Source: a virus
Direction: 5' to 3' (one strand)
IMG/VR virus record: IMGVR_UViG_3300025168_009799
Coordinates: 25,750 to 89,749 of that record
DNA: 64,000 bases
The translations under genes were made by a program, and so were the position numbers. The notes under the pieces are model-generated. The model was not told where the DNA came from and did not search any database. It saw only the letters and a program-made list of their open reading frames with translations. Below, piece by piece: positions 21,776 to 46,568 of this stretch (positions are counted from its first letter, which is position 1; each line of letters starts with the position of its first letter).

Positions 21776-21776
21776 T

Positions 21777-23153: not shown

Positions 23154-23154
23154 T

Positions 23155-25779: not shown

Positions 25780-25793
25780 TAAAATAATTAAAT

Positions 25794-28376
25794 ATGGCAA
25801 CTAAATATAGTAAAATAGGTATAGTAAAACCTTATGTTCCTCGATTTGTAGATGACGGGTCTGTAAAGATAAACACGTTATTATCAGAAAGATATGACAA
25901 TGCAATTGCAAATGAAAGTCTTTTAGAAGACGCTTATAATCAAATGCAAGTGGCAGACTTTGAGGGCGATCAAGAACTAGCAGGAGAACTAAGAACTAGA
26001 GTAGATAAAGAATTAAATTCATATAAAAGCCGAGGTGATTATGAAAATTTAGGTAGAGCAGTAAACAGGTCTGTTCAAAATTTTAAAACAGATTATAAAC
26101 CTTTAATGGATAATTATAGTGCTTGGTCTGGATATAAACAAGAGTTACAAGGAAGAGAAGATTTAACTCCAGCTCAGAAAAGTAAACGAGTACAAGCTGC
26201 TAAAGACGTGTATAGTAAAACTGATGGTTTAAAAAAAGATAAAGACACTGGTTTATGGGAAGGATTCTTTAGTGGTAGACAATGGGCTAAAGGGTTAGAG
26301 CTTACAGAAATGGCTGGTGATATTGCTAAAGATTTAAAAACAGAGTTAGTAGCTAGCGAAGGTTTTACAGAAGACCCTGCTACAGGCATTCTTATGAAAG
26401 TAGGTACTAGTAATGAATACTTAACTCCTCAGATGATTTATGATAGAGCTATGATTATGTTATCTGGTAGAGAAGATGTTAAAGCATTCTTACAAGATGA
26501 AGCATATATAACTTCTTCAGAATATACTCCAGATATGAAAGATGCTTTTGAAGGAGAGTCTTTAACAGACTTTAATAGCACAGTAGCACAATTAATGGAG
26601 AATGGAACATTTGAAGATCAGACTGAAGCAGAGGCAGCTGTATACGGACAATTAGCTTCACAAGGAATGTTAGACACAGCACTAAGAGCTGCAGGTGAGG
26701 TATACCAAGTTAAGAAGTTTAAACAAAGTATAGACGCACTTCCAGAATATATGCAATATGCTCATAATAGTAAATACGCTCAAAGTAGAAATGTTATCTC
26801 AGCTACTACAATATCTCAAGATGAATTTGTAGATTTAGGATTAATACAAGCTGCTAATAGTGAGTCTATGGATTTAGCGGAGAATACAGGAAATATTTTA
26901 AATTTAGCATTAGAGGAGTTTGGAAAAGATACAGGCTTAGATGCAGGTACTGCTAGATTAGTTTTAGAGAATTATAATCAACTAATGATGAGTAATCCTG
27001 AGTATACTACAGCGCCTCCAGAGGAGATAGCTGGAGTTATAGGAGTTACACCTCAACAAGTGTATCGTATACAAGAGTATGCTCCAGACATAAATAGATT
27101 GATTAATGATCACGCAACGTATCAAAAAAATGCATCTCAAGGTAGTAACTATCAAAATGAGTTATTTACTTTAGCTAAAGAGAATGGATTTGATATAGAC
27201 GGTTACATACAAGAAATGTGGGACAGTACACCATCTACTTGGACATCAAATGTGTTTGGAGAATCGAACAGTAGTGGTTTTGATATGCGTAAAGCAGAAG
27301 GAGCTGATATAGGGTGGTTAGGTACATCTATGCCTTGGAACTGGGACGAGTTAGAAAAGATGGAGTATGAAGATTTTAGAGAAATAGTTCTAACTGGAAA
27401 GTTACAAGATGGTCATGATTTAGGAGATGGAGGGTGGAATGAAGGAGACTTAGGTATGCTTAATCAGAAACTAACTACAGGTGAGGGAGTTGCTAGAGAT
27501 ATTAGATATAGATTAATGAATAAAGTTAATGAGATAGTACAAGCTAATCCAGACGCTTTATCAGGATCTGTGATTACTAATGCAGATAAGAAATCTCCTC
27601 TTAATAAACTTAATGTAGATATAACTACAGCTTTTAATGCTAATAAAAATGGATATACAGTTAAAGATATATACGGTAAAGATATTACTTTTGCAGATCA
27701 CTTAGTAGAGAATGGAGTATTAAACGATTATGGAGATATTAATAAGTGGGATATGGAAGAAGCATGGCCTGCTACTGGAGGATTTGTAAGTGATAATCCT
27801 TTAATGATGGTAAAGCTGAAAAATAATGAGAATGGAGAAACCATGACTACTACTATGCCTATGCAGCAATTACAAACTGAAACTTATAAAAGTGCAATGA
27901 TTACAGCATTAGATCATGAGAGTAATCCTGTAAGCAGACAACGTATGTTACAATCTTATGGACATAACATGGTTAATGTAGGAGGACAAAATGATTTTAA
28001 TAATAGTAATAAATTAAATATTAGTACTTTCTTTAATAGCGCTTTTCAACCAGATGTAGGAATTCAAAATGAAGTGGGCGTAACTTCTGAGCGAGCTTTA
28101 AAAATTGATTTACCTATATTTAATGGTGGAGCAAGTTTAAGAGTAGGTAAAAGGAAAATGCAATCAGGTCAGATGTATTATGATATTAAGGTAGCAGATC
28201 ATAATACGGGAGAGTTTTATGATCTAGGAGATCAAAGTGCTTTAGGCCCGGAAATAGTACAGTCATTACAGATGTTAGATAATAGACTATTAAGTAAGTC
28301 GTATAACAATGAAGCAATGTTATATGAGTTAGTTGGAGCATTAAATTATATTTCTGATAAAGGAATAATTAGATAA
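25794..28376 (+). CDS. Large helical cargo protein (860 aa)
   Basis: Unrecognised by family. It is almost wholly predicted helical, with acidic composition and Gln/Asp/Glu-rich stretches (LLEDAYNQMQVADFEGDQEL, and the repeated 'EDQTEAEAAVYGQLASQG' style). A conserved-looking terminus (GNMLEL-like LQSLQMLDNRLLSKSYNNEA) ends the protein. No membrane segment or enzyme motif was found. Its position between the 874-aa protein and the 1800-aa protein, with gaps of only 14 and 5 bases, marks it as a member of the late cargo operon. Crassvirales virions carry several such helical proteins in the capsid interior, which is the best supported analogy. Confidence 0.55.
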   Translation: MATKYSKIGIVKPYVPRFVDDGSVKINTLLSERYDNAIANESLLEDAYNQMQVADFEGDQELAGELRTRVDKELNSYKSRGDYENLGRAVNRSVQNFKTDYKPLMDNYSAWSGYKQELQGREDLTPAQKSKRVQAAKDVYSKTDGLKKDKDTGLWEGFFSGRQWAKGLELTEMAGDIAKDLKTELVASEGFTEDPATGILMKVGTSNEYLTPQMIYDRAMIMLSGREDVKAFLQDEAYITSSEYTPDMKDAFEGESLTDFNSTVAQLMENGTFEDQTEAEAAVYGQLASQGMLDTALRAAGEVYQVKKFKQSIDALPEYMQYAHNSKYAQSRNVISATTISQDEFVDLGLIQAANSESMDLAENTGNILNLALEEFGKDTGLDAGTARLVLENYNQLMMSNPEYTTAPPEEIAGVIGVTPQQVYRIQEYAPDINRLINDHATYQKNASQGSNYQNELFTLAKENGFDIDGYIQEMWDSTPSTWTSNVFGESNSSGFDMRKAEGADIGWLGTSMPWNWDELEKMEYEDFREIVLTGKLQDGHDLGDGGWNEGDLGMLNQKLTTGEGVARDIRYRLMNKVNEIVQANPDALSGSVITNADKKSPLNKLNVDITTAFNANKNGYTVKDIYGKDITFADHLVENGVLNDYGDINKWDMEEAWPATGGFVSDNPLMMVKLKNNENGETMTTTMPMQQLQTETYKSAMITALDHESNPVSRQRMLQSYGHNMVNVGGQNDFNNSNKLNISTFFNSAFQPDVGIQNEVGVTSERALKIDLPIFNGGASLRVGKRKMQSGQMYYDIKVADHNTGEFYDLGDQSALGPEIVQSLQMLDNRLLSKSYNNEAMLYELVGALNYISDKGIIR

Positions 28377-31300: not shown

Positions 31301-33784
31301 AAAGAGAAACAGTTAAGGGATAAGCCTGAAACTGAAGAGAATATAGATGATATACAAGTTATAAACCACACTGACTCTAAGTTAATAAAGATTGACCAGA
31401 AGATAGCAGAATTAGAAAGGGAAATTGCAGCTCAAAAACTAATTGTAACTCCTGAAGTTGATAGAATAACAGCTTTAGATAAAACTCTAGATGAGTCAGG
31501 TAGGGCTTTTGTAGATCTCATGAGAGAGAAAGGCAAGGATCAGGGTATGATTGACGCTAAGATAAAAACTGAAGCTAGAAAAACTGCAGCAGGGAATCAA
31601 TTACTAACAAAATATAAAGCTGAAGATACATTACAAAATCCAGAAGGAAAGAAATTAGCTAAACTAGTTGCTGCATATAGTTTATTATACACAGATAGAT
31701 ATATACCAGAAACTACAGTTAATAATACTTTATATTCATCTCCTGATTTAAGAACTCAAAATTTAGGCAATACTGCTTCAAATTACGGAGTTCAACAAGC
31801 TCTCCTTGGTTATGAGGCGTGGGCGGAAAGAGGTGAGACTCTCTCTAATCTTAAAGGGCAAAGAATAGGAATCATAGCTCAAAACAAAAGTAAGACAGAG
31901 GCTGTACCTAAGAATCCTAGTAATGAAACAGGTAGGAAACAAGGACAAGTTATTAGTAGAAATGGACAATATATAAACGAAGATCCTCAAGATAGGTCTC
32001 CAAAGTTTGATGAAAATTTTAATCCAACTAACCATAGATCTAGTGTTACTGTTAACGGGCAAGAGATTAAAATACATAGAGAGCTGTTAACTGATCCTGA
32101 TCTAGCTTCAATGGATACAGAGGTTACGTTAAGAGTGTTACCTACAGATGAGTGGGTTAAATTAGCAGCTGATCCTGGAGCTCCAGAAAAAAAATACCCA
32201 GACTATTCAACTATTCCAGTAGGAATATTTTTGGAGATAGAGAATTATGACGTTCTTGTAGGAACTTTAGGATATCATCAAGGTAATGCAGAATTTACTG
32301 TTGAAAGACAACGTATCTATAATAATTGGAAGAAGGGAAAAGATACTAGAGCTGTTATTAAAAGATATGAAACTGATAATATAGGAATTGATTCTGCTCC
32401 AGGATACAGCAGTAGTAAACTTACTAGTAATGGAGATATTCAAAATTATAGAGATAAGGACGGACTAGGAGTACAGAAATCTGTTTCAGAGATTTTTGCG
32501 TTATCGGAACAAGGCTATGGGCAGCCCGTTATTGCGGTAGTTGCAGGTAGTCAATTTTCTCCGGAAGGTCTTAATATTACTCTTGGATTAAATGCTCCTG
32601 AATTAGACTTAGATAATATACCTGTTCCAAAGTCTCAGATAGCAGGGTCAGTAGGTATGATTGTTCAGGACCCAAATGGTTATGATTTGTTCATACCTTT
32701 ACAAACTAGATTCTTAGGAGAGAACGCTATTAATACAATAATAACGAATGCTGTAGCTAATAACGTAAAAGATATTGAACAGACTACTTATGCTGATTAT
32801 TCGTTACAGGATTTAGAAGATTGGGGATATAGAGGAAGTAGTGTACCTGTAGATTCTAGCTCAGGGTTAGCAAATAATTTTTATAAAATTTTAGCTAAAA
32901 AAGATTCAGAGGATAACTTCTTAGACAGTACACATCTTTTTTACACTCCTTATAAAGATAGTATGGTTCTAGTAGGAGCATCTAACAAGGCTCTTAAAAA
33001 TCAAGGACCAGTTAAAATGTATGAAATAACTGAACAGGGTCTGAAAGTTGTACCGCAAGATAAACAACCGTCTGGATTACCAGATGCTGAGACAGCGATG
33101 AGAGACATGCTATCTAGAAAAAGATATCAAGTAGATGCTAGTAAATTTAATAATACTAATCTTCAATATAAAAGTCCTGTAACTGGTATAACGCACCGTA
33201 ATTACCAAGAATATTTGATGTCTGAGCAAGAGGCTAAGACTGAAGGAGGGGAGGTTCAAGAAAGACGTAATGGTGCTCCAGGAAGTAGCTCTGCTATTAT
33301 CGCTTCAGATGTATATGTAAGAAGAATGGAGAGACCTCTCGCGGGCCCTCATCGTAGTATACATGCGAATGTAAATATTGCTATGAGAATTCCTGAGTTA
33401 GATAATTTTAAAGGTCAGGAGTCTAACACAGATTTAGCTGATCCTATTACTCATAGCGAGGTAATTATAGAGCAACAAGAAAAATTATTAGAACAACAGG
33501 TTGCAGATATGTTAAATATTCCTAACTTTGACCCCTCTCAAATAGACTTCACTGGCGGAGTGATCCCAGGTGCTAGTGATTTAAATAAAATTGAGGAAGA
33601 TATAGTTAATAAAGAGGCTAAAAGATTTAAGAATGAACAAGAAAATAAGGAGGTAGATCCTATAAAAACTAATGAAACAAAGTCTGAAACTTCCACAGAG
33701 GAATTATTAGATAATAGTGACGAGGATATTCCTGATACAGATGCAGAAGATGATGGTATTGTTGGTAACGAAAAAGAATGTTAA
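28382..33784 (+). CDS. Giant internal virion (cargo) protein, 1800 aa, upstream of the virion RNA polymerase
   Basis: 1800 aa. A short N-terminal repeat-like element occurs twice (KIDLLGNV near residue 3; KMDLFGGV near residue 34). Around residues 195-235 is a small-residue hydrophobic stretch (YTLASVATIIATGGYGSIGV), glycine-zipper-like, followed by basic helices. The middle is strongly coiled-coil (about residues 935-1060, EERQRIEEEQEKQKEQDEK). The C-terminal third is beta-rich with a Gly/Asp-containing domain (VTLRVLPTDEWVKL). The order 1800-aa cargo then polymerase fits a Crassvirales cargo gene. The hydrophobic segment could insert into the host membrane during ejection. No enzyme motif recognised. 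Confidence 0.6.
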   Translation: MSKIDLLGNVDNTAELVSSATKNNSTTPKGPKMDLFGGVKSASKAAELGELPTWDASGDLFKRYNNLDLDNYKKYFTVDGQVEIPAVNLDALNEGRARHQSTLAQIGNGLGKAGVTFVSAVGENTVGLVNGTLSALYNWDISKLYDNNVSNVFQGMQDWAQESMPNYNTREMEHANFFEQMYNPGKGVANFWADKFANGFAYTLASVATIIATGGYGSIGVAGSLGRMGLQAAAQGGKKLLFQAAKDATKKTVKKGIRTMFKEGMKRSGSSINSVRQGVQNIAKGNVNAQALKTLDAGMSMAWAESSIEARDTYDTAYGSLVQQYMDENGFVDERQVPEQIKEKLSGEAQAASNVNFAANLAIVGTTDVLMFGRMINGYKPKIKFNPLSGTGKAAVDATLIEGSKLSKMRRIWRNTKAYSAAAGTEMTQEGLQYVSNNFVTDYYLDKNSDSGQADMVNSLGNAFTDLFGTKEGKESMLLGFLTGGVSTIKGTSKALAEQDANTESLINRVHTGFLSETRAKLEKKEASGRYTYLMQQAEQEGDLEAFEEAHQALIQNEVMASIQEGTLEEFKERVADAAEMSDEEFSETFGIDLDAVKIDKSSYITKLLKKAERIEAVYQEASQAFQVQERKGLYRWATEKMAPEELKTMEVRNENMNIFRSQYFNSVMQMDNLDAKEKENADLLSDLTNGEVNYTGMRDLIETTEQEEALDDRQMDLKRRINENLDDTGQPKDPALHGQLVMESEQLNIQRANLLDKLSEQHEKTLKGEFDKQFSAWSTKVQKQKGRVDLIDKASKAKIELDYARGLRNQAVQAFNALKTEDGRTALLEDIGRIEKLRRNDRHSGVLMREAQEMGMSEYTYAKLYAMSQMPGLNDKARKAIRKKQADLMKMEKRYRTMFRNMSDEQLAEALIKYNNNFIVGLVGEELLTRSEQKRVDLDEERQRIEEEQEKQKEQDEKVKRDEEERQNDILDKEKQLRDKPETEENIDDIQVINHTDSKLIKIDQKIAELEREIAAQKLIVTPEVDRITALDKTLDESGRAFVDLMREKGKDQGMIDAKIKTEARKTAAGNQLLTKYKAEDTLQNPEGKKLAKLVAAYSLLYTDRYIPETTVNNTLYSSPDLRTQNLGNTASNYGVQQALLGYEAWAERGETLSNLKGQRIGIIAQNKSKTEAVPKNPSNETGRKQGQVISRNGQYINEDPQDRSPKFDENFNPTNHRSSVTVNGQEIKIHRELLTDPDLASMDTEVTLRVLPTDEWVKLAADPGAPEKKYPDYSTIPVGIFLEIENYDVLVGTLGYHQGNAEFTVERQRIYNNWKKGKDTRAVIKRYETDNIGIDSAPGYSSSKLTSNGDIQNYRDKDGLGVQKSVSEIFALSEQGYGQPVIAVVAGSQFSPEGLNITLGLNAPELDLDNIPVPKSQIAGSVGMIVQDPNGYDLFIPLQTRFLGENAINTIITNAVANNVKDIEQTTYADYSLQDLEDWGYRGSSVPVDSSSGLANNFYKILAKKDSEDNFLDSTHLFYTPYKDSMVLVGASNKALKNQGPVKMYEITEQGLKVVPQDKQPSGLPDAETAMRDMLSRKRYQVDASKFNNTNLQYKSPVTGITHRNYQEYLMSEQEAKTEGGEVQERRNGAPGSSSAIIASDVYVRRMERPLAGPHRSIHANVNIAMRIPELDNFKGQESNTDLADPITHSEVIIEQQEKLLEQQVADMLNIPNFDPSQIDFTGGVIPGASDLNKIEEDIVNKEAKRFKNEQENKEVDPIKTNETKSETSTEELLDNSDEDIPDTDAEDDGIVGNEKEC

Positions 33785-36700
33785 ATGGCGAATTGTATAA
33801 ATAGTATAGATAGTTTAGTTGAAAGAAGGGTACAAATGTTATCCTATATTCAAAACAGATTTGGTAAAGATGTTTCTGTTACTATCAATAATTATGTTAA
33901 AAGGGTGGGTAATGAGAATGTACATGGTATGTTTAAAAACATGGCATTTACTTTATCTACTTTAGGTGAACCAGGTGTAGAGTATCATGAAGCTTTTCAT
34001 GGATTCTTTACTATGTATTTAACAGATGGACAGCGCGCGTCTTTATTAAAACAGGCAGCACAAAGATATGGAGAGCCTAGCCAAGTAGAGCTAGACGCTG
34101 TAAATGGAGTAAGAGAATTAGCTCTAGAAGAAAAAATGTCAAATGCATTTCAAGAGTATTCATTAACTGAAGACCCTAAAGGTATACCTGCTAAGATAGC
34201 TAAGTTTTTTAAAGACTTATGGAATTTAATTAAGAGTATGATTTCTGATTCTATAGGAATTAATCAAGCATTTTCTATATTAGAATCAAATAATATTCCT
34301 ATGAAGTTCAAACGGAATATGCACATGTTTAGAGGAGGGAAGCCTGCTATGTACTTAAAGAAACGTGTGGATTATACAACACAAGAAACTAAGGATACAA
34401 CTTTATTTATTAGATCTAGATTTATGAATTTCTGGAGGTCATACCAACAACAGGCTAAGCAGGATCCATTTAAGGTAGCTATTAATAGACAAATGGATAA
34501 AGTTAGAACAGCATTTCCTGCTATGACTAGATCAGAATCTTTAGTTAAAGTTTTAACGTCTCATACTAAGAATACGTTTTTAAGAAACGCTTGGTCATAT
34601 ACTGAGAAAGCTGAAGGAAAAGATGCTGGAACTAAAATTGATTTAAAGCAAGCAAGAGAATTACACGGACTAAGAAGAGAAGGAAAGACGGATGAGTATA
34701 TGAATAAACTTTCAGAATATGGAATTCAAGAGCGTGCAGCATTTGGGTGGTCTCCTAACCCAGGTAATAGAGTTAGAATGGATAAGACTACTACTAATTT
34801 TCAACACTTTATTGATATATATGAAAATTGGGGAGATACTATTCAGACCGCTGAAATTACAGATGATAACGGAAAGAAGAAAGAAGTTAAGATTAATACT
34901 ATAGACCAAGGATGGTGGACTGGGGTAGAAGAACTCTTACCAGATGTAGGATTAAAGATTAGACATAGAGAAGTAACTGAGGGATTAGAAGAACTACCAT
35001 TGGACCCAACTGAGACAGACTCTCCTAGTCCTGAAGGAGGAGAAAGGATTTATGAATTAAGCCATTATGAACAAGATAGTTGGAAAGGTATGTCAAAAGA
35101 GTTACGTATGTACTTTGAAGATATATTAGATTACTCATCAGAGATTCCAAACCATTTACAAGTACATAGACCTCATGGAGGTAAACATGTATATGAAGTA
35201 TTAAAATTAGCTTTATCAAATACTACAAGTTTTACACAAATGAAAGACGTGCTAAAAGAGAAAGCTACATTACATGGTCCTAATAGTATTTATGGTATAA
35301 TGTTTTCTCGTGTTACTGGCATAGGATTAGAAGGACGAGTAGAGAATATTACTATGCAGCTTCCTGCTACATTAGTATCAGATTTTCATGGATTATTTAG
35401 AAATACTACTAAAGAATTTAAATCGGTAAAGGTAAATAGAAGTAAGCGTAAAGACGCGCAAGGCATGTTGCCTGCACCTGAAGTAGTAGTTTATAACCCA
35501 GATCAGAATTCAATTATTAATAATTTAGTTAATAATCAATATAGAAAAAATATTATTGATGTAACTGGAGTTAAAACTGAAAGAGCTTTATACAATAAGG
35601 CTGTTACTGTAGAGCCTGGAACCAAAGATCAGAGTATAGAATATATACCTATTAGAGAGAATCTACAAGACTTTCAAGCCCACGTTAAAGATTTAAATTC
35701 TTTAACTTCAATGCGAGGAGAGCTTAATGAGTCCGAGCTGGTTGAGGCTACAAGAGCCTTTAGAAAAATAGTAACTTATTTAGGAGTTGATTTACCAGGT
35801 ATATCTCCACAAGACCAAGATACTGTTCTTTACGATATAGTAAATCAAGGGGTATCTATACCAAATAGATTTGGTAAGTATACTACATATCAAGGCAAAA
35901 ACTTTTTTAGATATTTTTTAAAAGGAAGCAAGACAAAATCAAAATCTAATTTATTAACTGTAAGTGCGCAGATTATAGATCAAAAAGGCGAACCTAAGAA
36001 GCCTACGTTTGAGCCATTTTCTAAAGGAGCCTCAAGAGGACTCTTAATGAATTTAGCAGCTTTTCAAAAAGCTTTAGGTATAAATGGAGAACCTAATTAT
36101 GTTAATGAGTTTGGTAAATCTATTTATAAAATTAACATGCCTACTGCTTTTGATAATACTGTGAATAGAATTAAGAGTGGTAAAATATTTGATGCAGACC
36201 CTAACAATATAGAATATGGTAATTTAGACAAAGATCCTTTGTTCGTACCAGTGCAAAAACCGGTTGACGGTACAAGCTCTTGGGCTAATTATGTAAGCCC
36301 TTTATATATGTCTATGATTAATAACACTGACGGTTTAAGAGAGAAGTTAAGTCTAGAAAATATTAGTGCTTTTACTTTAGATTCAAATAGAGGATATAGT
36401 GATTTTGGCCAGATGAGTGAGAGCGATGAATATTTATTACGTTTATTTCTATTTCAAAAAGGTACTCATTCGGATAACTTAACTAATATGATGATCGATA
36501 CTCAAGGGGATAGAGGAGTATCTAGTACTATGGGATTACCTAGAGTAATATTAGAAGGGGAAGGGACTAGAAGCCTTGATAATTCTATGTACGGCTCTAA
36601 TGGATTTAAAACTCTAACAGATTTTAGTAATGCTTATATTATTCAGGATATCGTTAAGATGCAACAAGCTGACTCGCATGTAGAACTTGCGGAAGATGGC

Positions 36701-39700
36701 GAATCTTTATTTGATACTTATCATTATACTAACCCTAGTGATAAAAAAGCTAAAGATGGTAAAGCATTTAAATTTACGCAATTGCCTTTTGCACAAGACA
36801 TGCTAGAGCGTGGGGACTTAGACTTATCTCCAGGTATAAACTTAACACAAATTAATGTAGAAGATTTTGTTAACGGTGAACAGAGTATTAGAACTAATAA
36901 CTATATAGAAACTGAACAAGAAACTGTTAGCAGAGATAAAGTTATAGCATTGCTAGATAAAATATCAATGGAGTTTGGAAAAAACATAGATAGGTATACA
37001 GATCAATGGGTGTCTGATATGAAAAAGATGAAAGTCTGGGATAATAATATATGGGTAGATACTGATTTTCTAAAAAAGATACACGGAGGAAATGCAGCGA
37101 TCAATGACATAACAAAGAAATATCTAATTAAAAATTATATCGTTAATGATGTAATTAATAGATTAGAAATGAAAAAGATATTACGTATTACAGATGATTT
37201 CACAAACAATACGGAGATAGCAGCTAAGAGATTTGGACTTGGATCTACTCCAGGACTACAATTATTAATGAAAGGTCAAAATTTAGCGGACCCTTCTTGG
37301 GGAATGACTCCTACATTTAGTGAATTAATAATTGAAGATTTATATAATATACAAGCAGATAGTGGAAGACATGAAAGGTTTGCAGAATCTCTTAATACGT
37401 TAGGGGTACCTTTAAAGTTAATTAATCAATTTGCTTCTCAATATAGACCAGGACAATCTAATAAGACAGACGCTTCTGGATGGATGTCAGTACATGCTTG
37501 GCGTAACAGATTACAAGGCCAACCTAATGGATGGACTAATGCACATGAGAAAGCATATAACAATTATAAGCAGTCTGGCGTATGGGGATTTTATAAAAAT
37601 ATTTATAATTTTAAAGAAGGTAAAACAGAACAAATTCTAGTACGTCCTCCTGTATTACCTATTAAAGAGTATTATGAATCACATGAATTGTATCAAGGTA
37701 ATACTTTAGCAGTTAATAATACTAAGAACTCTTATTTACCTTTATTAAAAGAGACAACAGACATAGCTGGTCAAGGCCTAGAGCTTATTAGATTAAGATT
37801 AGAAGGGAAGGAATTAAACGCTGCGGATAAAGCGGCAGGGAAAACTCAATTTGCTACACATACTCCTATAGATGTAGCTAATACAGTAAGCGCTAAAAAA
37901 CTTGCTAGACTTAACGTTATAAAATTTCAAAATAATGATGGTACTTTTAATATATCAGGATTAGTTACTGCTAAACCTGTTGTTTTAAATTCTAATGGAA
38001 TAAAGATTCCACAAATTAAACCTTCTACAGCAACTAAGAAATTTACTATTTGGGGCACACAAGTGAAGAGAAATGCAATTGCTAATGTACAAGATGATAC
38101 TCAATATACTCTTCCTCAAGGTAATAAATTATCTGGAAGTATGGTAAAATCTTTATATCATAAAGCTGCTCAAGCGAATATGGATACTAGTATTGAGAAG
38201 TTAGAGAAAGCTTTTGGATTTTCAAGATTGAAAGGTTTAAAACTTGGAGACAACGGTTATGATAACGCCAAACTTCAGCATTTAAAATACATTAGAGATT
38301 TAATTCAAAGAGAAGTTATAGAAAGAGGGTTACCACAAAGTTATATAGATTCTTTAGAAATAGTTAAAGATACAAAACAAGGATGGAAGTTTCAAATACC
38401 TTTAGATTTTCCAGTGTACCAGAGAAGATTTCAAAATATATTATATTCATCTTTTAGAAAAACAGCTTTAAGACAAAAGATAAACGGCCTACAGGTTGTA
38501 CAGATGGCTGATGTAGGAGGAAGAGATACTCAAACTTTAACATCTACAGATCTTAAATTTATTGATATAAATAACGGAAAAATAACTAAAGCAGAGATTT
38601 TAATATCTGAAGATATAGCAGCTAGATTTGGATTAAAGAAAGGAGAGTCATTAGAGATGGCTGATCCTGAATTATTAGATATGATAGGATATAGAATTCC
38701 TAATCAAGGTAAAAACTCTATATTAGCTTTAACAGTAAAAGGTATACTACCGGGACATGAAGCAACAGTAGTTGTGCCAGGAGAGATTACCACTCAGATG
38801 GGATCTGACTTTGATATTGATGCTTTATTTTTAATGATTAAAAATGGACAACGTAATAGCCAAGAAGCAATTGATAGAGGTGAACCTGTTGTTAATAAAG
38901 TTAGCTATCCTTTAGAAGAGATGACAGGAAAAGCAGTAGCTAATAAAAGTTTAACTGCTTATTCTAAACCGCAATTAGATAATTTAATTATTGATTTAAC
39001 ACAAGCTATTGTTACAAACGTAAATCATTTACAAGAAACTATTACTCCATTAGATCCTGCTGAATTTAATATGGGAGATCCAAATTCTTTTATTAATAAA
39101 GTTATTAATATAATGGGTACTGCAGAACAGTTAGATAAGTTAAATCCTAAGAGTCAAATTGAGTTATTAATGCGTAATAAAAACGGGGCTACAGGTATTG
39201 GAGTATATGCAAATACTTTATCTGTACGAAATGTATTATCTGCTCTTGACTTACCAGTAGCTAAAAAATATCAAATTAAACTAATTATAGATAAGTTAGG
39301 AGAAAATTTAGATCGTCAAGGTAATCCAGAGGTAGTTCAAGAAGAAGTAATTTTAAACAATTTTAATGTTATAAAAGATGCTTATGGAGAAGAGACTGTT
39401 GATGTGCATGCCTCTAAACATGTATCATTAGCTGTGGATAATGCTAAAGATCCTAGAATGTATTATTTAAATGATAATCCTTTAACTTGGACTGCAACTT
39501 CTTACATGTTAAGTATGGGGATGACGGCTAGAGACGCAGCTGTATTAAGATTACAACCTATGGTATGGGAAGTGGTTCAAGAAACATTAAGAACAGGTGG
39601 GTCTGTATTTGACTTAAAAACTGCGGCTGTTGAGAAAGCTAAATCGTATGCTTTAAAAAACGGTATTGATATATTAAGTGCGACGGATGAAAAGATGATT

Positions 39701-42175
39701 GGATTTAGAGATTCTTTCTTTAATAATTTAGGGTCAAGAGTAGTGAAGTTTCAAGTTGAATTAGCAGCATCTCAAATAGGCTCTACTTTAGAAAATCAAA
39801 ATAATCCTAACAAAGCTTATGGGTATTTATTAGGCCAAATGGTAGCTATCAACAATCTTCTAGCTATGAACAATGCTGGTCGAGATTTACAGACGTTAGC
39901 TAGAATAGTAGTTCCAGACAGTAAAGCAGAATTAAGTACAGCTGAATCAGCTAATGAATTTTTTGATGCTAAATATTTTTTAGAACAAAATGATTTAGAC
40001 ACATTCTCTGTTAATGCTCCAGACTTTGTTGCATTATTAGATGGTTCTAAATATCAAATGGTAAAAGGTATGCACGATGTTCTTACATCAACCGTAAATA
40101 ATATGTCTACTTTATTCAGACAGGGTAGTCCGTTATTATCACCTATGAGAGTTGCATCTGCTAATATGGATTTTGGACGACAATTCTTTGATAAACAAGG
40201 ACAACAAGCATTATCAGCATTCTTGTTATATAATGCTATGACTTCTCCTGGTAGTCCTATTAGAAATCTCGTTACTGAAGAAAATATAGAACGTTTATTA
40301 GTATCTAAAGAAACAAATTTTGCGAAAACATTAGAAGAAACTAAACTAACTAATCAAGAAGTTGCTACTAATTTATTTTTTAGTAGATTATCTACATCAG
40401 AAAGAATTTCTAAATTAGATAAGCAAATATTTTTATTGGATTTTAATCAAAATTTTATAGAAGGTAAAATTTCTAAAGACGCTGTAATTCAGGCTTTAGA
40501 GTCTGCATTAAACAGTGTAAATCCTAGTATTAGAGCTCTTGCTAAAGATGCTATTACTGTACAATTATTATCTAGTGGAATGGATAGTATAGGATTTAAT
40601 AATTTTATTGAATTTGTTCCTCCATCTTTTTGGACAGGATTAAAGTTTACTGAGAATTATGGTACTCAACAACAAGTAGAAACAGATGTAGAATCTTTTA
40701 TTGCGTCTAGATTACAAGAGCTTACAACTAGTGGGCTATCAGCGATACCTTCAGGAGGTATGGATAATTTTGTTAGGATTTATGGGCCTAGAGTTAAGAG
40801 TTTACTTAAACATATACCTTTAAAAACATTACCTAAGAAAAAAGGAATACGAGCTGGTATGCAACCGTCATATGAAATTGGAGTATTAGATGATGCTGCA
40901 GGTAGAGTTGTTTTTAACAAGATTCCAATTACATATTTTAAAACCACAAATAAGAGTGGGGAATTAGAAATGTATAAATTCAATATGGGTAAATCTAATG
41001 AAACTGTGTTGTTTTATGAGAAGCTTAATATGACTGATGATTTTAAATTTTTATACTTACATAATGTTTTAGACTCTAATGGAAGGCAAGTAGAGGAATC
41101 TGTATTACCTGATAGAAGCGCTCCAGGCCCTATGAGCCCGTTTACTCAAGCTAGTCCAGAGCAGTTACAAGCACAGTACGATCAAATGACTGAGAGTACG
41201 TTAAACCAATACGATAGACAAGCTCAGTCTTTTATGAATATGTTAACTAATGAGTCTGATTCAATTGATAGTACACCTATTATTGGAAAATCAGTTTCAA
41301 AACCTCTCAAAAAAGGTCTACCAGGAGTTTTTAATGAAGAACTACAACAAATAGGAACAGAAGACCAATACTCTGAGTATTTAGATACTGTATTTCCTAA
41401 TAGTAAAGTAAAAGAGATTGTTTATAGAGGAGTAGCAAAAACTAGACAACAAAAAGCCGCTGCTAATTTAGGTAAAGGTGTTTATTTTGCAATGGAAAAA
41501 GAGAAAGCTGAAAGATACGGAGACGTTACTGCTTCAATTGTTAATGTTCAAGATCCTTTAATAGTTAATATAACTAAGAATGATAACAGGGGGTTTGATC
41601 CAGGAAATGTAAGTGTTAAGAAAGCAACAACTAATGCTGAAAACCCAAGCGGTAAAGACGCAATGGTAAATTATGAATACTTAGCTAAAAATGATTATCA
41701 AGAGTATAATCAATATACTGGTTATTATGTAGGACCTTTAAATGTAGATGGGTCGCCTGCACAAAATGAATTTAAACAGACTCCTTATGCTACAGAATTA
41801 GCTGTTCAGTCAGACGCTCAAGTACTTGAATTAGGATCTAAAAAAGATATAGAAGGATTTAAGAAGTTTGTATCTAAACCAACATCTACTGTTACTGTTG
41901 GATCTGAACAAGCGCCTCCAAGTAATGCTATTCCTAAAGGAGCTATAAACTTTGGAGAGAGTGTATTTGGTAAAACAGATGAGAATTTAGATTTATTACC
42001 TAAAGAAGATTTAATAGAGATTCTTAAAGGATTAACAAATAATATGGCCGAAGTTAATAAAGAAGCTATCATGGCTGAGGCTGAAGGTATGAGTCAAAAA
42101 GATCTAGCTAAAATGGTCGAAGACATGAAAAAGGATGAAGATATTACTGAAGATGATTGTAATAGTCCACTATAA
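33785..42175 (+). CDS. Virion RNA polymerase polyprotein: HExxH zincin, DFDID RNA polymerase, ADP-ribosyltransferase-like domain
   Basis: 2796 aa. At residues 68-72 there is HEAFH, a zincin HExxH, followed by a helix with EEKMSNAF that could supply a third ligand. The central part holds the RNA polymerase catalytic loop TTQMGSDFDIDALFLM: the DxDxD triad is D1675, D1677, D1679, as in the crAss-like vRNAP of phage phi14:2. The C-terminal part (about residues 2540-2690) carries EIVYRGVAKT (R2548), GKGVYFAMEKEKAERYGD (Y2567), PLIVNI and ATELAVQ (E2671), which is the R/H-Y-E layout of ADP-ribosyltransferase domains of polyvalent proteins. The gene starts right after the previous stop. It is probably packaged and ejected, then transcribes early genes; the flanking domains could process it or modify host targets. 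Confidence 0.8.
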   Translation: MANCINSIDSLVERRVQMLSYIQNRFGKDVSVTINNYVKRVGNENVHGMFKNMAFTLSTLGEPGVEYHEAFHGFFTMYLTDGQRASLLKQAAQRYGEPSQVELDAVNGVRELALEEKMSNAFQEYSLTEDPKGIPAKIAKFFKDLWNLIKSMISDSIGINQAFSILESNNIPMKFKRNMHMFRGGKPAMYLKKRVDYTTQETKDTTLFIRSRFMNFWRSYQQQAKQDPFKVAINRQMDKVRTAFPAMTRSESLVKVLTSHTKNTFLRNAWSYTEKAEGKDAGTKIDLKQARELHGLRREGKTDEYMNKLSEYGIQERAAFGWSPNPGNRVRMDKTTTNFQHFIDIYENWGDTIQTAEITDDNGKKKEVKINTIDQGWWTGVEELLPDVGLKIRHREVTEGLEELPLDPTETDSPSPEGGERIYELSHYEQDSWKGMSKELRMYFEDILDYSSEIPNHLQVHRPHGGKHVYEVLKLALSNTTSFTQMKDVLKEKATLHGPNSIYGIMFSRVTGIGLEGRVENITMQLPATLVSDFHGLFRNTTKEFKSVKVNRSKRKDAQGMLPAPEVVVYNPDQNSIINNLVNNQYRKNIIDVTGVKTERALYNKAVTVEPGTKDQSIEYIPIRENLQDFQAHVKDLNSLTSMRGELNESELVEATRAFRKIVTYLGVDLPGISPQDQDTVLYDIVNQGVSIPNRFGKYTTYQGKNFFRYFLKGSKTKSKSNLLTVSAQIIDQKGEPKKPTFEPFSKGASRGLLMNLAAFQKALGINGEPNYVNEFGKSIYKINMPTAFDNTVNRIKSGKIFDADPNNIEYGNLDKDPLFVPVQKPVDGTSSWANYVSPLYMSMINNTDGLREKLSLENISAFTLDSNRGYSDFGQMSESDEYLLRLFLFQKGTHSDNLTNMMIDTQGDRGVSSTMGLPRVILEGEGTRSLDNSMYGSNGFKTLTDFSNAYIIQDIVKMQQADSHVELAEDGESLFDTYHYTNPSDKKAKDGKAFKFTQLPFAQDMLERGDLDLSPGINLTQINVEDFVNGEQSIRTNNYIETEQETVSRDKVIALLDKISMEFGKNIDRYTDQWVSDMKKMKVWDNNIWVDTDFLKKIHGGNAAINDITKKYLIKNYIVNDVINRLEMKKILRITDDFTNNTEIAAKRFGLGSTPGLQLLMKGQNLADPSWGMTPTFSELIIEDLYNIQADSGRHERFAESLNTLGVPLKLINQFASQYRPGQSNKTDASGWMSVHAWRNRLQGQPNGWTNAHEKAYNNYKQSGVWGFYKNIYNFKEGKTEQILVRPPVLPIKEYYESHELYQGNTLAVNNTKNSYLPLLKETTDIAGQGLELIRLRLEGKELNAADKAAGKTQFATHTPIDVANTVSAKKLARLNVIKFQNNDGTFNISGLVTAKPVVLNSNGIKIPQIKPSTATKKFTIWGTQVKRNAIANVQDDTQYTLPQGNKLSGSMVKSLYHKAAQANMDTSIEKLEKAFGFSRLKGLKLGDNGYDNAKLQHLKYIRDLIQREVIERGLPQSYIDSLEIVKDTKQGWKFQIPLDFPVYQRRFQNILYSSFRKTALRQKINGLQVVQMADVGGRDTQTLTSTDLKFIDINNGKITKAEILISEDIAARFGLKKGESLEMADPELLDMIGYRIPNQGKNSILALTVKGILPGHEATVVVPGEITTQMGSDFDIDALFLMIKNGQRNSQEAIDRGEPVVNKVSYPLEEMTGKAVANKSLTAYSKPQLDNLIIDLTQAIVTNVNHLQETITPLDPAEFNMGDPNSFINKVINIMGTAEQLDKLNPKSQIELLMRNKNGATGIGVYANTLSVRNVLSALDLPVAKKYQIKLIIDKLGENLDRQGNPEVVQEEVILNNFNVIKDAYGEETVDVHASKHVSLAVDNAKDPRMYYLNDNPLTWTATSYMLSMGMTARDAAVLRLQPMVWEVVQETLRTGGSVFDLKTAAVEKAKSYALKNGIDILSATDEKMIGFRDSFFNNLGSRVVKFQVELAASQIGSTLENQNNPNKAYGYLLGQMVAINNLLAMNNAGRDLQTLARIVVPDSKAELSTAESANEFFDAKYFLEQNDLDTFSVNAPDFVALLDGSKYQMVKGMHDVLTSTVNNMSTLFRQGSPLLSPMRVASANMDFGRQFFDKQGQQALSAFLLYNAMTSPGSPIRNLVTEENIERLLVSKETNFAKTLEETKLTNQEVATNLFFSRLSTSERISKLDKQIFLLDFNQNFIEGKISKDAVIQALESALNSVNPSIRALAKDAITVQLLSSGMDSIGFNNFIEFVPPSFWTGLKFTENYGTQQQVETDVESFIASRLQELTTSGLSAIPSGGMDNFVRIYGPRVKSLLKHIPLKTLPKKKGIRAGMQPSYEIGVLDDAAGRVVFNKIPITYFKTTNKSGELEMYKFNMGKSNETVLFYEKLNMTDDFKFLYLHNVLDSNGRQVEESVLPDRSAPGPMSPFTQASPEQLQAQYDQMTESTLNQYDRQAQSFMNMLTNESDSIDSTPIIGKSVSKPLKKGLPGVFNEELQQIGTEDQYSEYLDTVFPNSKVKEIVYRGVAKTRQQKAAANLGKGVYFAMEKEKAERYGDVTASIVNVQDPLIVNITKNDNRGFDPGNVSVKKATTNAENPSGKDAMVNYEYLAKNDYQEYNQYTGYYVGPLNVDGSPAQNEFKQTPYATELAVQSDAQVLELGSKKDIEGFKKFVSKPTSTVTVGSEQAPPSNAIPKGAINFGESVFGKTDENLDLLPKEDLIEILKGLTNNMAEVNKEAIMAEAEGMSQKDLAKMVEDMKKDEDITEDDCNSPL

Positions 42176-42191: not shown

Positions 42192-45100
42192 ATGGCATGT
42201 AGAATAAATAGAGACGCAAGTGATAATATACTAGAGGTACTAACTTCTAGAGGAGTTCCTTCGCAATTATATGAAGATATAGTAAAAGATCTTACAGTTA
42301 ATCAGAATAAGAGGTTAGCTGCTTTGAAAGACCCGTTTGTAGCATCAAGATTATCTAAAGGTAATGTAAGGAATACAACAGCTGAAGAAGTAGCATTTGG
42401 TATTTATGCTAAAGTATCAACTTCTGAATTTCAAAATCAAGTACAAAAAAATTCATATAGAGATTTAAATAATGAGATTTCTGTTACAGATCCTTCAATT
42501 CAAAAGTTATATCAAGTTCCTACATCTAATACTGTAGAAGGTAACATGGATATACGAAACCAACAAACAGCAAATATTTTAAGTGCCTCATTTGCTAAAG
42601 CTGGTATTAAAACTCATATAAAGATTAATAATAATTTATCAGATGCTGCACGATTAATGCCACAAGCTGCTGATGGGACTTTTGTTATTCAGATTAATCC
42701 AAATAAACTTCCAGGTGATGCTGTTTTTCATGAATTTGGCCATATCTATATAGACTTATTAGGATTAGAACACCCTGTTATTAAACAAGCTGTAGAAGCT
42801 TTTAAATATTCTAGGTTATGGAAATTTATAGAAAGAGAGTATCCAGGGTTAACATATGAACAATTACAAAAAGAAGTTTTAGCAACAGCTATAGGATTTG
42901 AAGGTGAAAGAATAATCAAAACAGAAGAAAGCTCTACTGTATTAGAACGAGTTATTAGAAATATCTTAGATGCAATTGGAAAATTATTCTCTATTACATT
43001 TGTAGGTAAAAATTATAGAAATTCAGCTAGAATGTTAGCTCAAGAATTATATACAGGTAATGTTAGAACTGATATCAATTCAGTTAGTGCTGTAGATTAT
43101 ATACAACGACGAAAAGATTATAATGAATTAGATGCTTTAGTACAAAATACAGAAATTGCACTTAAAGAAAATATAAACTCATTACGTAGTAAAGGGTTCG
43201 AAGTTAAAGCAGAAATACTAGAAGATAACTTAAAGAAATTAAGAAAAGCTAAAACAAGAGCTAATACAATAAGACAATTAATTAAATATGCTCAGGTTGT
43301 ATCTTCTCAAACACAAAATATGATTAATTCTATTAATCAGTTAGAAGTGCTGCATGAGAATAATGATCCTACTATAAGTAAATACTCTAAAAATATTGCT
43401 AGTATTTATCAATATATACATTCTCATGACCATTTAGAACAAATACAAGACTTTTTAAATAAAGAAAATTTATCTCCAGAAGAAGCAAAATTACTAAGCA
43501 CTCATAATATTCCTCAAGTTGTACAAGATTTACGAGATGCTTCTAGTAAATTTAGAGAGATAGAAAGAAAGTATAATTATATAGCTCCTTATATCTTAGC
43601 AGACCAATTATTAGATTATCATAATCAGGACATTGACTCAGAGCTAGAGAAACATTTAGCTACAATGGCAAAGAATAAAGAGGATGGTAGATTTTTTACT
43701 ATACAATTAGATAAAAAAGATCCAGATTATGTTACTTTAAAACAACAAGAGACGGACGGTATATTAACTCCGGAAGCTTTTAATGAGAAAGTAATGCAAT
43801 TAAATATAGAGCAGTTAAAAAATAAATTTACTGTAGGTAGAACTCAATTAGTGGAGACTTTAAGAAAGAGTATACGTGATAAAAGTGGAATTTCTATGTG
43901 GTTAGATCCTTTTGTACACTCAACTGATGTTAGTTTTCAACTATTTGCTAAAAAAGTTAAACATGCTTTTGATAGAGCGGATGTAGTTAGTACTCATAGT
44001 AGAAACTTTTTAGGAAATGAATTGGGTAGATACTTAAAAGCAACTGGTCAAAGTTCTTTTAGACCTGAAAAATTAAATGCGCCTTTTGTTGAAGTTATAG
44101 ATATGTTACAATATAATCCTAATACTGGTGCATATGAATTAAGAAAACATAAAGCTTTTGTACAAGAGTATGATGTAAGTAAATTCTATGAAAAGAAAAA
44201 GAAATTTATTGATGAATTATATGAACGGTTAGAATATCCTAAGAACGGTACTGAACAAGACATAGCGAACTGGATGGATACACATACTAAGCAAGTTACT
44301 CAAGAACTTAAAAAATGGGATACTGAAAATACTGTACCTATTGAAGGCGCTGATCAAACTATTAAATCTAAATTAGCAGAATTAAATAAAGCTTATAAAC
44401 TTCGTAAAGAAGCTGAAAAAAGTAAAAGGTTAGATTTAGCGGCTGCAGCAGAGCATGAAGAAAAAAGAGTTAGAATGTGGTTAAATAAAAATACTAGATA
44501 TGCTGATGGTAAGTATACTGCTATTGGATTGTTAGCTAGGCCTACTGATAACTATAAAAATCCTAAATATAATAAGATACAAGCTGATTCTGCAAAGAAA
44601 AGATATTATAACGCTCTTCGAAAAGTACATGAGGCTTCTCAAGATAAAATTGGAGAGTTTAAATTAAGAAGAAAAAGAAATTCTTGGAATAACCATAGTT
44701 ATATTTTACCTTCTGTAAGAAAACAAAAAAGAGACATGCTGTTTGAAAACGGTATGCTTAAAGTAATAAAAGAAGCAAGTCAAAGTCTAAATGTACAAAA
44801 AGGGGATGATATTTATAATTCTAGTATTGTTCATACAGAGGATGAAACGAAAAAGATTCCTATTTATTATACAGAAGACATGGTACCTGAAGATGTGAGT
44901 GTTGACTTAGCTAATTCTTTACTAAGTTTTGATCATATGGCTAACTTGTTTCAAAGTAAATCTGAAATTCAAGATACAGTTCTTATGATGGAAGCTCAAA
45001 TTTCAAATAGAGATCAAGTATCTACTGCACCAGACGGACAGCCTTTAATGAAAAGGTTAGCTAAAACTTTAGGATATAATGTACATTCTACTAAGAAAGC

Positions 45101-46568
45101 AGCAAATAATAATAATTTAAAAGCTTTACGTAACTTCATTGATATGAATTTTTATGGAGAACAAAATGTAAAATCACAAGTTGTTGTTCCTCTATTAAAT
45201 AAACAAATAGAAATGAATAAGGTAAGTAGTACTCTTATTGCATATACCGCAATGAACGCTTTATCTTTTAACTTGCTACAAGCTACAAATCAAGTTGTTC
45301 TTGATGATCTTATGAATTATGGAGAAGCTATGGGTGGAAAATATTATAATAGAAAACAATACTTTGCAGCTAAGAAAGAATATACTAAATATGGTATGTC
45401 TATGAAAGATTTAGCAGCTGGACGAGCTGTTACTAAATTAGGAGCTGCAATTGAGATGTTTGATCCTCTACAAGGAGAAATGAGTAGTAAATTAACCGGG
45501 AGATCTTTAGGTAGTAAAAGTAAACGAATGATGACTTCAGATTTTACCACGTTCTTACAACACGGCGCTGAACATGAAGTTGCTGTAACAAGAATGATAG
45601 CTCGTTTAATGAATATAAAACCTAAGAACGATAAGGGTAAATATATTAATAGACAAGGTAAAGAAACTGATATAAAGTCTCAAGGTGCTAGTTTGTGGAA
45701 TATGATCCAACAAGGAGATGTTAGACAAGAAAATGGTAATTTAGTACTTAAGAATGGTATTACTATTACTGATATAGAAATTAATAATATTAAAAATCAA
45801 TTACATGGTTTAACTAAATTATTAAATGGTGTTTATAATCAATTTGATAAAGCTGAGCTTAAAAGGCATTGGTGGGGAAAACCTTTCTTATTATTTAGAA
45901 GTTGGATGATGCCTGGTGTACGTAAAAGATATGGCCGAGAAGCTGGTTTAGGTATGCATATTGATGAAGAGTTAGGTACGTTAGGTGAAGGGTCTTATGT
46001 ATCCTTTGTTAGAGCCTTAAGGAATATGGTAATGGAAGCTAAAACAGGAGACTATTCTGAAGCTATGAAGATATTAGCAGGTAAAAGTGATACTTTAACC
46101 GATATGGAAAAATTAAATGTTTCTAGAACATTAAATGAAGTAATATCTATTGGGGTAACAATGATCTTATTTGCAGGATTAATGTCTATGATAGATGATG
46201 ATGACGATGAAATAGGATATGGTATGAATTTTACATTATATCAAGCTAAAAGATTACAAACAGAATTAAGAGCTTTTGTTCCGCTTCCTATGCTTGGTAT
46301 GACAGAGTTTTTACGTTTATTAGAATCTCCTACAGCTACATATAGCTCACTTGATAAGTTTGATGGCCTTTTAAAAGAGCTATTAACGCTTGGAGGTGAT
46401 ATGTTAGATGGAGAGTTAGAGGAGGGTAGAAGGTATAAGAGAAAAACTAGCGGCTATGAGAAAGGTACTCTTAAACTTAAAAAGAAATTTTGGGATGTAG
46501 TACCTATTATAAGAGGTCTTGAAAAAACTAAGACTCCTGAAGACGCTCTTAAGTGGTTTCTTCTTTAA
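42192..46568 (+). CDS. Large polyvalent virion protein with HExxH zincin motif (1458 aa)
   Basis: 1458 aa. HEFGH at residues 180-184 (in GDAVFHEFGHIYIDLLG) is a zinc metalloprotease HExxH preceded by a beta strand and followed by helices, and nearby residues LQKEVLATAIGFEGE could contribute a third ligand. Most of the protein is long, basic, alpha-helical sequence. The C-terminal third contains one hydrophobic helix (VISIGVTMILFAGLMSMI, about residues 1316-1333) next to a run of Asp residues, and FVPLPMLGM-type segments typical of polyvalent phage proteins. It ends by overlapping the leftward gene by 20 bases. It is likely packaged cargo, possibly a protease maturing other cargo or cutting host proteins after ejection. 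Confidence 0.65.
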   Translation: MACRINRDASDNILEVLTSRGVPSQLYEDIVKDLTVNQNKRLAALKDPFVASRLSKGNVRNTTAEEVAFGIYAKVSTSEFQNQVQKNSYRDLNNEISVTDPSIQKLYQVPTSNTVEGNMDIRNQQTANILSASFAKAGIKTHIKINNNLSDAARLMPQAADGTFVIQINPNKLPGDAVFHEFGHIYIDLLGLEHPVIKQAVEAFKYSRLWKFIEREYPGLTYEQLQKEVLATAIGFEGERIIKTEESSTVLERVIRNILDAIGKLFSITFVGKNYRNSARMLAQELYTGNVRTDINSVSAVDYIQRRKDYNELDALVQNTEIALKENINSLRSKGFEVKAEILEDNLKKLRKAKTRANTIRQLIKYAQVVSSQTQNMINSINQLEVLHENNDPTISKYSKNIASIYQYIHSHDHLEQIQDFLNKENLSPEEAKLLSTHNIPQVVQDLRDASSKFREIERKYNYIAPYILADQLLDYHNQDIDSELEKHLATMAKNKEDGRFFTIQLDKKDPDYVTLKQQETDGILTPEAFNEKVMQLNIEQLKNKFTVGRTQLVETLRKSIRDKSGISMWLDPFVHSTDVSFQLFAKKVKHAFDRADVVSTHSRNFLGNELGRYLKATGQSSFRPEKLNAPFVEVIDMLQYNPNTGAYELRKHKAFVQEYDVSKFYEKKKKFIDELYERLEYPKNGTEQDIANWMDTHTKQVTQELKKWDTENTVPIEGADQTIKSKLAELNKAYKLRKEAEKSKRLDLAAAAEHEEKRVRMWLNKNTRYADGKYTAIGLLARPTDNYKNPKYNKIQADSAKKRYYNALRKVHEASQDKIGEFKLRRKRNSWNNHSYILPSVRKQKRDMLFENGMLKVIKEASQSLNVQKGDDIYNSSIVHTEDETKKIPIYYTEDMVPEDVSVDLANSLLSFDHMANLFQSKSEIQDTVLMMEAQISNRDQVSTAPDGQPLMKRLAKTLGYNVHSTKKAANNNNLKALRNFIDMNFYGEQNVKSQVVVPLLNKQIEMNKVSSTLIAYTAMNALSFNLLQATNQVVLDDLMNYGEAMGGKYYNRKQYFAAKKEYTKYGMSMKDLAAGRAVTKLGAAIEMFDPLQGEMSSKLTGRSLGSKSKRMMTSDFTTFLQHGAEHEVAVTRMIARLMNIKPKNDKGKYINRQGKETDIKSQGASLWNMIQQGDVRQENGNLVLKNGITITDIEINNIKNQLHGLTKLLNGVYNQFDKAELKRHWWGKPFLLFRSWMMPGVRKRYGREAGLGMHIDEELGTLGEGSYVSFVRALRNMVMEAKTGDYSEAMKILAGKSDTLTDMEKLNVSRTLNEVISIGVTMILFAGLMSMIDDDDDEIGYGMNFTLYQAKRLQTELRAFVPLPMLGMTEFLRLLESPTATYSSLDKFDGLLKELLTLGGDMLDGELEEGRRYKRKTSGYEKGTLKLKKKFWDVVPIIRGLEKTKTPEDALKWFLL

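Follow-up and report, generated by a model that had tools for sequence, protein, structure and literature searches.

Giant RNA polymerases that are packaged in the virion have been described in N4-like phages, where they carry an MPTase (zincin) and sometimes an ADP-ribosyltransferase (ART) domain of the polyvalent-protein type, and where this fusion was published together with the proposal that the ART acts like T4 Alt (Iyer 2017, PMC5512222). The crAss-like phages use an unrelated enzyme with two double-psi barrels instead of the T7-type single-subunit polymerase of N4, and that enzyme is carried in the virion and delivered along with the DNA (PMC7886860). Mass spectrometry detected gp47, gp49 and gp50 in crAss001 virions (PMC10172136), and the record annotation of phi14:2 g065–g067 cites tandem mass spectrometry proteomics. 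Here we analysed a 64,000-nucleotide stretch of the 89,749-base virus record IMGVR_UViG_3300025168_009799 (the window; positions 25,750 to 89,749 of the record), which encodes a 2796-aa crAss-like virion RNA polymerase polypeptide (vRNAP) with a zincin and an ART domain; virion presence and early-transcription activity have been shown for relatives of this vRNAP (PMC10172136, PMC7886860). The fusion is a convergent variant of the N4-like case. What seems more surprising, and was absent from an earlier prediction made from the sequence of this stretch (the original prediction), is that the vRNAP and its two neighbours carry cysteines only at the ends that face one another. The relevant features are as follows.

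21747..28376, plus strand: three upstream genes at the cargo-gene (ejection-type) position, assigned by position, 468, 874 and 860 aa
28382..33784, plus strand: gp47-like putative cargo protein, 1800 aa, proposed first link
33779..33781, plus strand: C1800, last residue and sole cysteine of the gp47-like protein
33785..42175, plus strand: vRNAP, 2796 aa, equivalent of phi14:2 gp66 and crAss001 gp50
33794..33796, plus strand: C4 of vRNAP, facing the upstream gp47-like protein
37460..39616, plus strand: RNA polymerase region, residues 1226–1944
38807..38821, plus strand: DFDID, predicted catalytic loop, residues 1675–1679
42158..42160, plus strand: C2792 of vRNAP, facing the downstream gp49-like protein
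42192..46568, plus strand: gp49-like putative cargo protein, 1458 aa, proposed last link
42198..42200, plus strand: C3, sole cysteine of the gp49-like protein

The vRNAP open reading frame (ORF) starts with ATG and contains no internal stops. Residues 1226–1944 matched crAss-like virion polymerases, including phi14:2 gp66 and crAss001 gp50, at ~22% identity (tblastn, E ~1e-20 to 1e-22), and the polymerase core region alone gave a single match in the PDB, 6VR4 (E 6e-18). By homology, this region is a crAss-like virion RNA polymerase related to phi14:2 gp66; since the surrounding sequence is homologous to phi14:2 gp66 and 6VR4, DFDID is read as the catalytic loop, so the vRNAP is a large gp66 homologue with a DxDxD loop. 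The vRNAP as a whole matched no family in Pfam or PHROGs, and its identity was therefore built from relatives; scanning IMG/VR at full length yielded no close ones. On either side, the products of 28382–33784 and 42192–46568 matched gp47 and gp49 of crAss001 and the corresponding proteins of phi14:2 and Dulem (blastp), so that the vRNAP is flanked by gp47-like and gp49-like genes, while PHROGs was mostly uninformative on the window neighbours except for virion structural and lysis matches. By homology with these relatives, the vRNAP would be the middle cargo protein of a packaged transcription set.

The window trio totals 6054 aa and four cysteines: one in the 1800-aa gp47-like protein, two in the 2796-aa vRNAP and one in the 1458-aa gp49-like protein. 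Each of these lies at an end that faces a neighbour, and the three upstream genes contain none in 2202 residues. The pattern is likewise found in phi14:2 (C1797 of 1797; C3 and C2179 of 2180; C3), and phi14:2 g065–g067, crAss001 gp47/gp49/gp50 and p-crAssphage gp44–gp45 all comprise the same three modules with facing terminal cysteines. We then compared 103 representatives (<70% core identity), taking the last 12 residues as the C-end and the first 10 as the gp49 N-end. A cysteine was present at the polymerase C-end in 89/93, at the gp49 N-end in 73/73 and at the gp47 C-end in 26/28 cases, whereas the outward ends mostly had none (gp49 C-end 1/66; gp47 N-end 3/19); the figure for other ORFs was about 15%. 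Internal cysteines occurred at 0.54 per 1000 residues in complete polymerase ORFs versus 13.4 in other ORFs. The rule held in nearly all crAss-like loci inspected, including members of Steigviridae, Intestiviridae and Suoliviridae; some gut phages have internal cysteines and still keep the terminal ones, and in crAss002 gp33 the first cysteine lies at residue 35, possibly a question of start site. N4 gp50 (0 cysteines in 3500 aa) and the large ejected proteins T7 gp15/gp16 are also cysteine-free, which suggests, by analogy, that cysteine is disfavoured by transit during ejection; against this background the terminal ones are conspicuous. These systems differ from the window in lacking terminal cysteines; N4 has one polymerase polypeptide, and T7 gp15/gp16 carry no comparable enzyme set.

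The cysteines followed the gene boundaries. With split and fused classes set by length cut-offs, the polymerase N-end carried a cysteine in 37/38 polymerases split from gp47 versus 1/19 fused to it (P = 1e-12), and in the single split exception the cysteine follows a later Met. Six ORFs in which the polymerase is fused to gp49 (L032, L036, L038, L039, L041 and L042, loci being cited by L number; 4000–5600 aa, two with both ends present) contained no cysteine. Conversely, nine extra middle links in further-divided sets each had exactly two cysteines, one per end; the link of L114 and of L139 is the ART itself, that of L164 carries an ART, and that of L133 combines an ART with a PD-(D/E)XK nuclease. 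The five interposed ORFs tested that broke the rule were three homing endonucleases and two ferritin-like proteins. The ferritin-like genes (PF00210) lie between the polymerase and gp49 genes at the two loci tested (L030:12884–13372 and L070:8017–8517), and similar-sized ORFs occupy this place in a few other loci.

The window junction reads TGT-TAA-ATG-GCG-AAT-TGT, and the terminal TGT codons could in principle be a DNA or RNA signal for re-initiation or recombination and not a protein feature. We consider this highly improbable, since the spacing is variable, TGT and TGC are both used (184 vs 20), and the cysteines persist in crAss001-type genomes whose gp47 lies on the opposite strand; the opposite-strand cases led us to reject the junction signal.

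Taking the domains and the cysteines together, we think it probable that the vRNAP is a packaged zincin–polymerase–ART middle cargo protein within a disulfide-joined string of gp47, vRNAP and gp49. The vRNAP would be packed in the head with its gp47-like and gp49-like partners, by homology to the relatives. In the virion, disulfides would link the tail of one split protein to the head of the next (gp47-SS-vRNAP-SS-gp49), replacing the peptide bonds of those relatives that encode the cargo set as one polypeptide. The string would be threaded into the cell in order, the host cytoplasm would reduce the disulfides after entry and open the string, and the vRNAP would refold and begin early transcription. 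We lean slightly towards extending this to the whole of Crassvirales, with ejected transcription cargo as a covalent string held by single terminal disulfides in the virion and released by cytoplasmic reduction, in which ART and PD-(D/E)XK beads are either fused, as in the window, or separate two-cysteine links (L114, L139, L133).

A point that weighs against such disulfides is that terminal cysteines could bind metal or dock without forming them. On this rather doubtful alternative, the cysteines would serve docking or metal binding, or would tether the cargo to portal or ejection proteins, with no bond between neighbours. Their positions do shift by a few residues (mostly 0–4 from the end, 3–6 from Met), and within a multimer the single cysteines at the ends could be ligands of a shared metal; however, they are found only at link-facing ends, are lost on gene fusion and are paired on newly split links. 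Moreover, disulfides stabilise crAss001 tail assemblies (PMC10172136) and are therefore compatible with the virion environment. A text search of PMC10172136 gave no mention of cysteine, and no description of a cysteine or disulfide in this cargo came up in the literature searched, which did not include Yutin 2018 or the structure paper on phi14:2. If the cargo is cysteine-joined, the string would deliver several large proteins in a set order along a narrow tail, and the avoidance of cysteine in these giant proteins would have an explanation; the idea is testable in the cultured phages phi14:2 and crAss001.

As separate observations at these ends, the C-terminal tails of gp47 and the polymerase are alike in many loci (E-x-W-N-x-L-S-x-E-E ... 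C; e.g. L055, L067, L097), and the N-termini share short modules (MxxCPN...W...; MACK...G..S.L); tails and modules may be docking elements.

The zincin of the vRNAP comprises the following features.

33848..34246, plus strand: zincin domain, residues 22–154
33986..34000, plus strand: HEAFH, residues 68–72
34130..34132, plus strand: E116, candidate third zinc ligand

Profile hidden Markov models for the zincin and the ART were built leaving the window out and were searched against every window ORF of at least 60 aa. With the zincin profile, only the vRNAP fell below E 0.1 (residues 22–154, E 1e-35), and for both profiles the best E in 50 sets of shuffled ORFs was no better than 0.13. The whole 89.7-kb record gave one match to each profile, both on the vRNAP. 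In an alignment of 51 zincin sequences, H68, E69 and E116 were invariant (51/51) and H72 was present in 44/51, giving an HExxH motif with a third conserved ligand. The original prediction had proposed a structural check of both ends of the polypeptide; for the zincin, sequence homology and the conserved HExxH bore the assignment out and the AlphaFold2 model was confident (predicted local distance difference test score, pLDDT, 84), while fold matches in the PDB were weak. The best had a non-significant E of 0.22, which tells against the assignment; the top names include zincins, with PprI, MATCAP and abylysin all at E of at least 0.2, and a profile search gave Zmp1 at E 0.009.

We considered and rejected the notion that the zincin belongs to the vRNAP alone, as crAss001 and Dulem virus 41 carry its homologue at the C-terminus of the upstream protein; in cr53_1 and cr108_1 it lies inside a fused protein. 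To survey relatives, a polymerase-core scan and an ART scan each gave 80 IMG/VR loci; these are metagenome contigs, many incomplete, and gene calling was crude. The zincin was on the polymerase ORF in 43/80 polymerase-core loci and always upstream of the core. Because the gene boundary is often placed immediately before it (the window, L015, L016, L019–L024, L031, L034) or immediately after it (crAss001, Dulem, L051), the zincin marks the gp47/polymerase junction. On sequence grounds, it is a domain conserved across crAss-like phages at this junction, with phi14:2 as an exception in which HExxH was not found in g067. Split crAss001-type sets differ from the window in that the zincin belongs to the upstream gene and not to the polymerase N-terminus. 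The zincin part is thus known, p-crAssphage gp45 being already annotated as a zincin-protease fusion. The predicted zincin probably cleaves the cargo close to the gp47/polymerase junction; the original prediction had suggested that it may separate the modules.

The ART region lies near the C-terminus of the vRNAP.

41309..41896, plus strand: ART-PolyVal/PARP-like ART domain, residues 2509–2704, from profile and fold search
41426..41428, plus strand: R2548, first ART position, where most relatives have His
41483..41485, plus strand: Y2567, second ART position
41795..41797, plus strand: E2671, third ART position

The leave-window-out ART profile matched only the vRNAP among window ORFs below E 0.1 (residues 2509–2704, E 6e-35), and the standalone 206-aa ART of L007 matched window residues 2514–2697 (E 3e-13). 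L007 reached 2.5e-6 against PF18760, just under the cut-off, and the relative L060 exceeded it (E 1.9e-13, 51.8 bits); PF18760 matched 6/6 tested ART members at E of at most 1. A tblastn search with the window ART piece found no match in phage records. The AlphaFold2 model of the domain (pLDDT 76) placed R2548, Y2567 and E2671 in strands 2546–2550, 2566–2569 and 2667–2674, and every one of the 50 best PDB matches listed by Foldseek was a PARP ART domain (best E 2.6e-4, probability 1.00), although template modelling scores were only ~0.35 for a model with low-confidence loops. The profile and fold searches exclude a chance R-Y-E layout, and membership of the ART superfamily is secure. The results upheld the original prediction in part: the 2796-aa ORF has HEAFH, DFDID, R2548, Y2567 and E2671 at the positions claimed, the C-terminal region adopts the predicted ART fold, and one polypeptide combines a crAss-like vRNAP, a zincin and an ART, by domain homology and with the same combination in relatives. 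Sharing one ORF, these enzymatic domains make up a polyvalent protein in the sense of Iyer 2017, with virion delivery expected from the relatives.

Catalytic activity of the ART is likely but not certain, judging from its residues. Several observations weigh against it. The window piece matched PF18760 at only E 0.034 (15.4 bits vs the cut-off of 31.2), and it reads R-Y-E where PF18760 expects an H-Y-[DE] site in strands 1, 2 and 5, R2548 replacing the usual His. Of 79 sequences, 71 have His and 6 have Arg at the first position, 66 have Tyr or Phe at the second, and 31 have Glu at the third (46 have E, D or Q there), so that some of the 48 ARTs without Glu may be inactive. A degenerate, non-catalytic module that the cargo string keeps for docking or as a folded spacer is possible though improbable: the motifs on either side (KDIVYHG, QIHILG..D..GF) hardly differ between sequences despite the variable third position, yet the window copy retains Y and E in predicted strands of a PARP fold, the tested members match PF18760, and the low Glu count may partly reflect misalignment in a highly variable middle.

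If active, the ART would most likely modify a host molecule within the same first minutes. A target like that of T4 Alt, namely host RNA polymerase, appears unlikely. Both are injected phage ARTs, the window ART would be delivered together with a phage polymerase, and an equal proposal exists for N4-like vRNAP-ART fusions (PMC5512222); but the likeness is a functional analogy only, as Alt is a separate protein with no polymerase fusion. ART-PolyVal belongs to the Tox-ART-HYD2/PARP-like clade, whereas Alt falls in the separate R-S-E clade (PMC5512222), and anti-defence or translation targets are equally possible. That two unrelated packaged RNA polymerases independently gained the same kind of effector points to selection for host modification at the start of phage transcription, and the crAss-associated ARTs form a family of candidates for assay.

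The ART–polymerase pairing recurred among the relatives. A polymerase core was within the fetched locus, with up to 10 kb on either side, in 65/80 ART loci (on the same ORF in 31, on another ORF in 34), with no core in reach in the other 15. The ART lay before the zincin, between polymerase-core matches, after the core or near the gp49-like start; at L128:2–3235 and L154:9563–10729 it stands between two core matches, as if inserted. Only 6/80 polymerase-core loci carry an ART, so the module is optional. L008, to which the window is closest by polymerase core, runs colinear with it and has no ART; by this comparison, the window is a case of an ART module added ahead of a retained C-terminal tail. 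ART and polymerase distances were uncorrelated (r = −0.03, P = 0.66, 59 pairs), a weak test because ART distances are near saturation. This speaks against inheritance of the ART with its polymerase, which we set aside, and for exchange instead of a fixed partnership. In named phage records, no ART match linked the window ART to phi14:2, crAss001 or p-crAssphage.

Among the remaining features of the locus is a second zincin-like domain.

42657..43148, plus strand: second zincin-like domain in the gp49-like protein, residues 156–319, with HEFGH (residues 180–184) at 42729–42743

HExxH is absent from the counterpart of this domain in several crAss-like relatives. Thioredoxin-like genes occur near the transcription block at L172:24366–25633 (p-crAssphage) and L174:23818–24093, and are possibly related to a redox step.
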